This document shows, in pieces, positions 3,330 through 47,793 of a stretch of 64,000 bases of DNA. This stretch comes from Arenibacter sp. ARW7G5Y1 (GTDB taxonomy: Bacteria > Bacteroidota > Bacteroidia > Flavobacteriales > Flavobacteriaceae). The notes beneath the pieces are model-generated. The model saw only the letters and a program-made list of their open reading frames with translations. It searched no databases and was not told where the DNA came from. The translations under genes and the position numbers were made by a program. Location of the stretch: NCBI RefSeq assembly GCF_003201775.1, contig NZ_QJJZ01000020.1, forward strand, positions 1 through 64,000, in the 5' to 3' direction. Position 1 is the stretch's first letter. Each line of letters begins with the position of its first letter.

Positions 3330-3674
3330 ATGCCAAGATCAGTAAATTCAGTTGCTTCCAGAGCCAGAAGAAAAAAGGTGATGAAGCAGGCCAAAGGTTA
3401 CTTTGGAAGACGTAAAAACGTTTGGACAGTAGCCAAAAATGCGGTTGAAAAAGCAATGTTATATGCTTACAGAGACCGTAGAAACAAGAAAAGAAATTTC
3501 CGCTCCCTATGGATTACCCGTATCAACGCTGGTGCCAGATTGCACGGAATGTCCTATTCCCAGTTTATGGGCAAGGTAAAAGCCAATAACATAGAGCTTA
3601 ACCGTAAGGTTTTGGCTGATTTGGCCATGAACCACCCAGAGGCCTTCAAAGCTATTGTGAACAAAGTAAAATAA
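3330..3674 (+). CDS. rplT: 50S ribosomal protein L20
   Basis: L20 is an early assembly protein of the 50S subunit and in other bacteria represses its own operon. The 114 residues show the family pattern: basic N-terminal extension [16 protein letters not shown], the KGYFGRRKN motif, [11 protein letters not shown], and the globular RNA-binding end. Length is normal. It is the last gene of the operon and is followed 25 nt later by a strong terminator. Confidence 0.97.
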
Positions 3675-3698
3675 ATTAATAAACTTATCTCGCTTATA

Positions 3699-3729
3699 AA
3701 AACCTGTTCCAAATGGAACAGGTTTTTTT
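3699..3729 (+). terminator. Terminator after rplT
   Basis: AACCTGTTCC pairs with GGAACAGGTT across loop AAAT and is followed by a run of seven T. It ends the thrS-infC-rpmI-rplT transcript. Confidence 0.9.
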
Positions 3730-3960
3730 ATGCCCTGTTAATATTGCTAAAGAATACTCAACTCTAAACCAAGATCAGAAACAATTATTGTGTTTATGAC
3801 AAATTAGGAATAATTTGATCAGTCGCGTTTTTGGATCAATAGTTTTAATTAATAGGAGCAATCTAGTAAAACCAATGACTAAATTATTCTATCATTTTAC
3901 TCAAGTGGTTTTTATAGTTTTTTAATAGTTTTCGTGAATCTTCGATTTCTTTGCTTGCCC

Positions 3961-4046
3961 AATGAAACCGACGCAGGAGGTTCATGAATACCTTATTATA
4001 AAATAAAAAGGCAATGAATAAAACGAAACCGCAGGTTCACGAATAC
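3961..4046. repeat. Two diverged copies of a short repeat unit
   Basis: Unit 1 (3961-3991) and unit 2 (4021-4046) share the pattern GAAACCG, then GCAGG, then GGTTCA(T/C)GAATAC. Unit 1 has three extra bases in the middle. A third weak echo (TTCGTGAATC) lies near 3931. Nothing here is coding. The role is unknown. Confidence 0.45.
3981..3992. repeat. Left copy of a 12-bp inverted repeat
   Basis: TTCATGAATACC is the exact reverse complement of 4551-4562. The two copies frame 558 bp of hairpin-rich, gene-free DNA, as terminal inverted repeats of a small non-autonomous element would. The core TTCATGAA is itself palindromic, which weakens the case somewhat. Confidence 0.4.
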
Positions 4047-4092
4047 ATAATTAGGAAAATAACCAGCCATGAGCTAAACAAAAGAAAAGACC

Positions 4093-4500
4093 CTTCTTCG
4101 CTAGGTGGTCCCTAAAATCCCTGGATTTTAAGGACCGATGCCATGGCCTAAATTATTTCCAAGGCTTCAATAATTCTTAACGGCCATGCCATCTCCTCTA
4201 CGGAAGAAGAACGACCGAACCATAGACCTTGAGGACAATGCTCAAAGGTTTTTAATAACGGAAAATGACTTTTCCCCACATGAAGGTTGACGGAACGAAA
4301 GGACCGGCCTATTTTCAATTTCGTCTTAAATCAAGTGGTTTCCACATTGGGTTCAGGTAGCTGTCCAAAGAGCATTTCACCCTAGTGAAAGCGGCCTGGA
4401 CGGCGCGGCGGTGGAAAATGCGTAGATTTAAAGAAATTTAAAATCAGCTGGCCATGGCTACAGCTGGCTCCTCCTAACCAAGGTACACCGTACCTTGGTT
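4093..4500 (+). ncRNA. Candidate structured RNA or folded intergenic element
   Basis: No open frame of note lies here, but stable stems follow one another. A three-way junction (4093-4099 with 4203-4209) holds hairpins 4107-4136 and 4137-4193. Next come 4226-4249 and 4260-4275, then a nested stem set 4339-4417 with an inner hairpin looped CCTA. After that is a hairpin capped by a GAAA tetraloop (4425-4445), then 4445-4466, then a perfect stem of 11 bp or more (4476-4486 with 4490-4500). A GAAA loop and one G-U pair on the plus strand favour a plus-strand RNA. It is not tmRNA or RNase P RNA, since their signature segments are absent. No clear promoter was found. Function unknown. Confidence 0.35.
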
Positions 4501-4550
4501 ATTCGGCCCTGGTCGTTTTTTATTCATCGGCTGGTCTATTGATTTTTAAT

Positions 4551-4562
4551 GGTATTCATGAA
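4551..4562. repeat. Right copy of a 12-bp inverted repeat
   Basis: GGTATTCATGAA is the exact reverse complement of 3981-3992. The remaining sequence to 4676 shows no gene or strong structure. Confidence 0.4.
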
Positions 4563-4676
4563 TGCTACGCATTTGGGCGATGCAAAAAATGAACAGAACA
4601 CAAACTTGAGATAGTAAATTATATCTTCTTGCAATTCACACACAACTTTTGGGATTGATCCCAGAACCAACTATTG

Positions 4677-4955
4677 TTAGGTCGTTTTTATTTTACTGAT
4701 TGCCGCCTTAAATTCTTCCCAATCTATCAACTCATCGCCAGATTTGTCATAACCCTCAATTAGCTTGGAAGAAACAATTCCTCGTAAAAAGCCACTTATT
4801 TCCGCCTTTTTCAACAATTCAACAATCTCACTTTTTTTGAGTTTTCCATCCCCATCTTCATCAAAAAAATTATAGGCCTCCTCCGGCGTTTTAAATTTAT
4901 TGGTGATCAGAATCTGTATTTTATCCAATATCATATCTTTTGTAGCCATGCCCAA
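4677..4955 (-). CDS. Small EF-hand calcium-binding protein
   Basis: A 92-residue protein with two canonical EF-hand loops: DEDGDGKLKKSE (about 32-43) and DKSGDELIDWEE (about 70-81). Both keep acidic residues at positions 1 and 12 and the glycine at 6 or its usual substitute. There is no signal peptide or membrane segment, so it is probably a cytoplasmic calcium sensor or buffer. The start is MGMATKD; the second methionine at 4949 is an equally possible start. It stands between the hairpin-rich region and the yjbQ-like gene, with no operon partner. The specific role is unknown. Confidence 0.75.
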   Translation of the reverse strand: MGMATKDMILDKIQILITNKFKTPEEAYNFFDEDGDGKLKKSEIVELLKKAEISGFLRGIVSSKLIEGYDKSGDELIDWEEFKAAISKIKTT

Positions 4956-29143: not shown

Positions 29144-29216
29144 GACCTGGTAGCTCAGTTGGTAGAGCATCTCCCTTTTAAGGAGAGGGTCCTGGGTTCG
29201 AGCCCCAGCCCGGTCA
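29144..29216 (+). tRNA. tRNA-Lys (anticodon TTT)
   Basis: A complete cloverleaf of 73 nt: D stem GCTC/GAGC, anticodon stem TCTCC/GGAGA with loop CTTTTAA giving anticodon TTT, T stem CTGGG/CCCAG with loop TTCGAGC, discriminator A73. The CCA end is not encoded. The acceptor stem GACCTGG/CCCGGTC has one mismatch, T5 opposite C68. A promoter lies upstream and a terminator directly follows. Confidence 0.95.
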
Positions 29217-29326: not shown

Positions 29327-29413
29327 GCCCACGTGGTGAAATTGGTAGACACGCCACCTTGAGGGGGTGGTGTTCGCAAGGACGTGCTAGTTCGAATCTA
29401 GTCGTGGGCACCA
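29327..29413 (+). tRNA. tRNA-Leu (anticodon GAG)
   Basis: A class II tRNA: acceptor GCCCACG/CGTGGGC (perfect), anticodon stem CCACC/GGTGG with loop TTGAGGG giving anticodon GAG, a long variable arm with a TTCGCAAGGA segment, and T arm GCTAG/CTAGT with loop TTCGAAT. The 3' CCA (29411-29413) is encoded, unlike in the neighbouring tRNA-Lys. Confidence 0.95.
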
Positions 29414-47724: not shown

Positions 47725-47759
47725 ATTTTTGGCATGTTCCTTTTCATCAAAGATATAAA

Positions 47760-47793
47760 AATAAAAAAGCTACTTTCATCAGAAAGTAGCTTT
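47760..47793 (-). terminator. Terminator after the rpmB-rpmG-DUF4295 genes
   Basis: AAAGCTACTTTC (47766-47777) pairs perfectly with GAAAGTAGCTTT (47782-47793) around loop ATCA. The A-run at 47763-47768 reads as a T-run on the minus strand. It lies between the DUF4295 stop and the ftsY start. Confidence 0.85.

Follow-up and report, generated by a model that had tools for sequence, protein, structure and literature searches.

The hairpins that crowd positions 4093–4500 of the window (the whole analysed stretch, 64,000 nucleotides from the genome of Arenibacter sp. ARW7G5Y1) are real, yet they do not constitute one stand-alone RNA gene: they are the interior of a MITE-like element with ISAon1-type ends. 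We think it probable, though by no means certain, that this is a non-autonomous MITE, moved by an ISL3/ISAon1-type transposase, that carries two inverted structured RNA units and probably guards the 3' ends of transcripts. Demonstrated here are ends shared with an insertion sequence (IS), 8-bp duplications, an empty site in relatives, and a covarying structure that, in intact units, has a 3' pseudoknot.

The preliminary description had read the region as a dense run of stable hairpins in a gene-free stretch and as a candidate large structured RNA of the plus strand. The hairpin run stands: the segment 4085–4530 folds to a minimum free energy (MFE) of −145.1 kcal/mol on the plus strand (z −4.82) and −149.0 kcal/mol on the minus strand (z −3.67), values that none of 100 shuffles equalled on either strand. 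The stretch is also free of genes, with no open reading frame (ORF) of at least 60 amino acids between the end of rplT (3674) and position 4677. Among the individual stems named, that at 4476–4500 was recovered as a perfect 12-bp pairing (4475–4486 with 4490–4501), and the three-way junction with its 4137–4193 stem is part of the plus-strand MFE structure and also of a consensus drawn from 46 distinct copies; the hairpin capped by a GAAA tetraloop at 4425–4445 was displaced, these bases pairing, in the covarying consensus, as the 3' side of a long helix with its 5' arm at about 4306–4333. The idea of a large plus-strand structured RNA survives in part. It applies to one unit (unit I), which shows strong covariation and plus-strand wobbles, and fails for a single 400-bp RNA gene: the three-way junction is a second unit, probably on the minus strand, and the hairpin at 4475–4501 belongs to an optional module. 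The extent 4093–4500 is likewise that of one of many repeat copies, within an element that runs further, from 3772 to 4661. A repeat scattered without conserved pairing, the outcome that had been set against an RNA, describes the region by half, in that the repeat is scattered and the pairing is conserved. Searches of Rfam 15, which had been proposed as a check, returned no family: at the gathering threshold there were no matches in this stretch or in 15 loci from other genera, and permissive E-value scans of two stretches gave, at the units, matches far below the family cut-offs, so a known Rfam RNA family was rejected. Elsewhere in the window, two tRNA genes (RF00005) lie at 29144–29216 and 29327–29410.

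Positions 3900–4680 have 125 matches (E 10 or better) in the same genome, from full length down to short pieces, and in a set of 60 genomes, own included, the segment 4080–4530 was matched in every one of the 18 that belong to the genus; 6 of the 42 others gave weak matches (best E 7e-7). Element copies end sharply at positions equivalent to 3772 and 4661, and these copy ends, together with a search for paired ends, delimit the whole element at 890 bp (3772–4661, plus strand in the orientation of unit I). Both ends are common to the window element and a complete IS of 1415 bp in the same genome (G000, contig C2; locus L074), the left (3773–3804, plus strand) at 87.5% identity over 32 aligned positions and the right (4619–4661, plus strand) at 90.7% over 43; a related IS in another genome (G004; L082) likewise has both ends in common with it, and the interior of the window element aligns to neither IS. 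Each IS encodes two ISAon1-type proteins, recognized by the NCBIfam models ISAon1_upstream and ISAon1_downstr, the larger one also by Pfam DDE_Tnp_ISL3.

Comparison of the flanks places a target duplication on either side of the element, CTAAACCA on the left (3764–3771) and a diverged CAGAACCA on the right (4662–4669), identical at 6 of 8 positions. The fetched loci hold 49 elements with both ends (326 to 1416 bp, two being the ISs themselves), whose 8-bp flanks are identical at 8/8 positions in 19 and at 7/8 or better in 25; the remaining 24 were kept in this count, some of them probably mispaired ends or old copies. Maribacter contributes, among the matches listed, 17 elements with both ends, of which 6 have a duplication matching at 8/8 positions and 10 at 7/8 or better. 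Nine Maribacter elements of 354–366 bp, again among the matches listed, consist of the IS ends, unit I and its pseudoknot, with duplications of 8/8 in three and 7/8 in three, and because they hold just these parts, unit I with its pseudoknot is the smallest conserved cargo seen. The transposase of the ISAon1-type IS had no match inside the unit-bearing elements of the fetched loci; at one locus (L046) a 44-aa transposase remnant adjoins such an element.

For the insertion site, rplT was located in 19 other genomes (17 of Arenibacter, 2 of other genera) and the 1500 bp downstream were compared. The element is present there only in A. palladensis (G014), and in one genome (G011) other DNA surrounds a 54-nt piece with 74% similarity to 4025–4078. 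Two genomes (G013 and G016) have the empty site, reading through the target with a single AAACCAAC, and in several others the flanks lie close together behind rplT with less exact edges; in G001, G004, G007 and G010, for example, the window's next gene is absent, so that the target site is unreadable there. In place of an optional module of the window copy (4449–4571, plus strand), which holds the perfect hairpin 4475–4501, the A. palladensis copy has the standard pseudoknot segment, a difference at one and the same site that implies exchange of the module after insertion. Modules are exchanged between element copies, and in Maribacter elements of 461–471 bp a module similar to 4449–4571 stands in place of the 3' arm of unit I. 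With the insertion young at this one traced site and the fold old, we infer selection on the element and not on the single locus. From the dispersed copies, the ISAon1-type (ISL3 family) ends, the 8-bp duplications and an insertion beside rplT in 1 of 19 other genomes, we conclude that the element is MITE-like: it shares its ends with a complete IS of its own genome, has an 8-bp duplication and occurs in multiple copies without a transposase gene. Its mobility as DNA in Arenibacter and Maribacter is best explained by the putative action of an ISAon1-type transposase in trans.

Other features of these repeats were recorded alongside. Unit I modules form tandem arrays in the same genome (L042 10480–12017, L041 13468–14609 and L056 2895–11379), and the junctions of the arrays fall at short shared TAAATTAT-like words. 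Several contigs of this genome (C16, C19, C21, C25 and C29 of G000) end within repeats, so the copy number is probably underestimated, and four (C1, C2, C3 and C30) start with the same variant IS end, ACCCAACTTTTGAGATTGATCC at 249–270, which suggests a second, multi-copy IS of the ISAon1 group. The hpA pattern has 4 occurrences in G000, 12 in G251 and 2 in G270, and on C16 of G251 a plus and a minus copy lie about 6 kb from each other; since no gene was seen to be flanked closely by an inverted pair, hpA and hpB were rejected as the terminal repeats of another type of IS. The left end of Arenibacter copies has a TTG-N20-TTAATTTG-like string, and the flavobacterial −7 box is given as TAnnTTTG in passages of PMC9723704; we claim no promoter at this end because the minimal Maribacter elements lack the string.

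Unit I (domain 2; 4305–4446, plus strand) is a conserved long helix with internal loops, identified by covariation and by a match of covariance model R2 to 4305–4480 at 143.8 bits. Folding of 101 copies of 4305–4446 (92 distinct) with RNAalifold gave −72.6 kcal/mol on the plus strand versus −53.4 kcal/mol on the minus strand. On a tree of the 92, changes from Watson-Crick pairs to G-U outnumbered those to C-A by 61 to 20 in the plus-strand reading (p 6e-6), counted over pairs common to both strands' folds and beside 78 further changes to other mismatches, and stem sites underwent 2.82 changes per site versus 5.78 in loops. An alignment of 57 sequences under the tool's own fold yielded 24 pairs only, 4 of them changed on both sides, and the outer helix needed a set wider than this one. 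Covariation was assessed on 26 sequences from eight genera, with the structure, including the pseudoknot, written out. Here 91.6% of cells are paired, and 30 of 57 pairs and 132 cells have changed on both sides, compared with 83.6%, 15.7 pairs and 38.2 cells in shuffled controls and at most 51.5%, 15 pairs and 35 cells in slid controls, in which partners were moved by 1–3 columns; relatedness may by itself exceed the shuffles, and the slid control preserves relatedness. The number of further pair types is less striking (60 versus 54.7 shuffled, with 14 of 500 shuffles reaching 60), and G-U cells outnumber C-A cells by 66 to 9, a count biased towards G-U by prediction of the structure on the plus strand. 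Covariation in homologues, the check named beforehand in the preliminary description, is thus strong in unit I, which is, as predicted from these alignments, a structured RNA repeat with conserved pairing, its plus strand favoured by the wobbles.

Directly 3' of unit I, intact copies have a pseudoknot, in which CUAG(C/A)N or CUUGA(C/U) is followed by a U-run and then by a hairpin on a U:A stem, and a loop closes the knot by pairing back. In the window copy this pseudoknot is broken between 4521 and 4575, and comparison with intact copies identifies its remnants, both on the plus strand, as CG with a U-run (S1a/L1; 4514–4521) and the loop GGGCGATGC with an A-run arm (S1b/S2b; 4575–4594). The arms of S1 change jointly (CUUGAC/GUCAAG, CUUGAU/AUCAAG and CUAGAU/AUC), and the U- and A-runs within pseudoknots are mostly equal in length. 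Of the 26 aligned sequences, 17 have CG and 8 have AU at pseudoknot pair 170–193. S1 is shorter in the CUAG class, which leaves two of the five S1 pairs tested open in most sequences (21 and 17 of 26 cells). Swapping arms among 48 distinct pairs, a few of which are chance pattern matches, lowered the mean S1 length from 3.75 to 2.52 (maximum 3.17 of 500 swaps), and arms of at least 4 numbered 18 before swapping, equal to the swapped maximum of 18. At the level of its letters, the segment is a covarying H-type pseudoknot with a U-rich L1 and a U:A S2, and so resembles those that form a U.A-U triple helix.

Unit II (domain 1; 4093–4209, probably minus strand) is the three-way junction. In the window copy the two units are inverted, head to head, with their pseudoknots pointing outward and both interrupted. 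Among Arenibacter copies unit II is mostly invariant, with 0.81 changes per stem site versus 2.63 in loops, and covariation there is thin for this reason. Its apical hairpin (4145–4185, minus strand) has a covarying 4-bp stem round the loop GAAGCCTTGGA, as read on the minus strand, which across genera takes the forms UAUU/AAUA, UCUU/AAGA, CGCC/GGCG, CGGC/GCCG and UUCC/GGAA; for 22 distinct arm/loop forms the pairing is 0.966, versus 0.694 when arms are swapped, with a maximum of 0.830 in 1000 swaps. The pseudoknot of unit II (3946–4093, minus strand), intact in other copies, is split in the window by an insert between its distal part (3946–3970) and its proximal part (about 4078–4093). In the minus-strand reading its S1 covaries as GUC/GAC, ACCC/GGGU, CCCC/GGGG and GCAC/GUGC, and a swap test on 13 distinct forms from other copies and genera, one of them unpaired, gave a mean of 3.08 versus 1.92 swapped (maximum 2.85), with the 4 arms of at least 4 equalling the swapped maximum of 4. 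The alignment fold of domain 1 is stronger on the minus strand (−66.3 versus −58.3), and its wobble test favours neither strand (10 GU versus 15 CA on plus letters, p 0.42); the minus strand is likely for unit II. Arenibacter copies and other genera have in common a GAAATCGAAGATTCACGAA-like segment (window 3931–3949; L324, L325 and L327) by which pseudoknots are interrupted; it may be another inserted repeat.

The core pattern of unit I was also found, among the matches listed, in Maribacter, Poritiphilus flavus, Muriicola and a Bacteroidia MAG. Covariance model R1 matched 13 of 299 family genomes, including the window's own and one more Arenibacter, and R2 matched 78 genomes in an order sample of 395 and 48 in a phylum sample of the same size, 29 of the 48 lying outside the order; the R2 cut-off was E 0.01 per genome, with at most six candidates scored per genome under strict filters, and the two samples overlap. 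The rough E-values, if valid, give about 4 chance matches per 395 genomes, so that the weakest R2 matches are not trusted singly. A further weak R2 match in the window, at 47735–47792 on the minus strand (E 0.028), is probably chance. Distant units, in the copies shown, start with CGGCC or a near variant and end just past the pseudoknot between differing flanks, and their interiors differ while the closing helix and the pseudoknot are kept; in one genome (G886) similarity extends further 5' of the unit start. Other genera have several free units per genome in a patchy distribution. ISAon1-type ends are absent, by pattern, from the eight copies of Poritiphilus, Muriicola and the MAG among the matches listed, and none were seen in the copies inspected outside Arenibacter and Maribacter. 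Integron-like cassette arrays were considered and rejected, the same-strand arrays in distant genomes sitting, by eye, among unrelated-looking genes, as was a phage or plasmid origin, for which viral pattern scans (exact matches only) and blastn gave nothing. In G117, two Flavo-1 RNAs (RF01705; L188 238–310 and 7736–7808) lie less than 4 kb from a unit I copy.

The orientation of units relative to genes was scored for 68 placed copies, with genes taken as simple ORFs and copies required to have a pattern-matching pseudoknot and 600 bp of flank. Tandem settings have 26 copies along and 10 against the genes (p 0.011), and the other gaps are convergent in 22 cases and divergent in 10; in a farther group of 17 copies, which includes two from the window's genome and G117, the upstream gene is on the opposite strand in 8. 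This modest bias fits a role at the 3' ends of transcripts, or merely selection against harm. A reading of the hairpins as an intrinsic terminator was rejected, no terminator-like site having been found in 3600–4760. We propose that an ISAon1-type transposase of the ISL3 family would move the element in trans, and that its cargo would be two inverted units of a structured RNA repeat dispersed across Bacteroidota. The units would be transcribed, by read-through or from within the element, and would act as folded single strands; their most likely role would be that the long helix and the 3' pseudoknot shield or define the 3' end of transcripts crossing the element. With such a role, insertions downstream of genes would do no harm, the RNA of the element itself would be stabilised, and the unit could spread within different vehicles.

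The free units of other genera, sharp-ended, patchy and present in several copies per genome, also suit a different account, in which the RNA unit is itself mobile via RNA, or via a single DNA strand, as a bacterial analogue of SINEs. A borrowed reverse transcriptase or nuclease would then recognise the 3' pseudoknot as its tag, and the ISAon1 ends would be a vehicle acquired late. A fold that is kept and strand-specific would agree with this, and so would the preservation, best in the distant copies shown, of the 3' pseudoknot and the closing helix. However, no partner gene was seen to recur beside units when the ORFs listed for 19 and for 14 loci or sites were inspected by eye, the 81 free units tested have no excess of flanking direct repeats, and 6 of 24 carriers have no Y1 transposase, while 30 Y1 loci hold one weak unit match between them; we regard the account as a possible but doubtful one. 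In its fuller form it would have Bacteroidota harbour RNA-level mobile elements of about 180 nt that end in a U-rich triple-helix pseudoknot, lack duplications and a dedicated transposase, and are packed singly or as inverted pairs into ISAon1-type transposons in Arenibacter and Maribacter, which strikes us as rather unlikely.

Units that are dispersed, strand-specific and arranged in inverted pairs also recall REP/BIME-like repeats, bound or moved as single-stranded DNA by a Y1 (RAYT) protein, but the unit size of about 170–200 nt does not, and Y1 genes fail to track the carriers: they do not adjoin units, and at E 1e-5 the same 6 of 24 carriers lack them, whereas 14 of 16 genomes with no unit match have them. 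The Y1/RAYT link was therefore rejected, and we consider this explanation highly improbable. Many MITEs are palindromic, and a scattered repeat whose modules are swapped between copies might be an ordinary palindrome-rich MITE, its neutral DNA palindromes devoid of an RNA role and homogenised by gene conversion; compensatory changes over eight genera, a covarying pseudoknot, a strand-specific wobble bias and stem sites in domain 2 that change at about half the rate of loops all speak against it, and make it improbable. The element offers a clear test case for why a DNA transposon would preserve an RNA fold: transcript protection, its own spread, or the RNA as the true parasite. A phylum-wide pseudoknotted RNA, often multi-copy and without an Rfam entry, would alter the annotation of intergenic repeats in Bacteroidota.

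REP/BIME repeats are dispersed intergenic palindromic units that occur in inverted pairs, often downstream of genes; the units described here differ in their length, their covarying long helix and pseudoknot, and the absence of a link to Y1 genes. U-rich triple-helix pseudoknots are found in telomerase RNA, SAM-II and the ENE elements of viral and transposon RNAs, with which our pseudoknot shares a loop 1 U-run beside a U:A stem and S1/S2 in H-type order, whereas our repeat is bacterial, multi-copy and not known to bind a ligand or protein, its putative triple helix being predicted from the letters. The large structured bacterial ncRNAs ROOL, GOLLD and HEARO are in some cases tied to mobile DNA; unlike them, the element has no Rfam match at the gathering threshold, in the window or in the 15 other loci, and no phage match. 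Among its closest known kin are MITEs of the ISL3 family (ISAon1 group), which it resembles in its IS-derived ends, 8-bp duplications, many copies and lack of a transposase, and from which it is set apart by a conserved pseudoknotted RNA unit that is also found without such ends. Searches of open-licence PMC text, aimed at the element type, ISAon1 and six sequence strings, brought up no prior description, and a review of prokaryotic MITEs (PMC10969869) mentions neither Bacteroidetes nor Flavobacteri-, neither pseudoknot nor structured RNA, and neither mRNA stability nor ISL3. BrickBuilt of Porphyromonas gingivalis, also named in passages of PMC5771137, is presented in passages of its description (PMC4596501) as an intergenic MITE with repeated internal modules and no transposase remnant, with TIRs that resemble those of other elements and with transcripts reported from within. 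The window element is likewise an intergenic Bacteroidota MITE with repeated internal modules and no transposase remnant, but the modules of BrickBuilt are 23-nt direct repeats, and the same passages contain no conserved RNA fold or pseudoknot, which marks it as a different MITE and not a prior description of this one. What is new is the cargo of this MITE-like element, a structured RNA repeat present as two units in inverted orientation.
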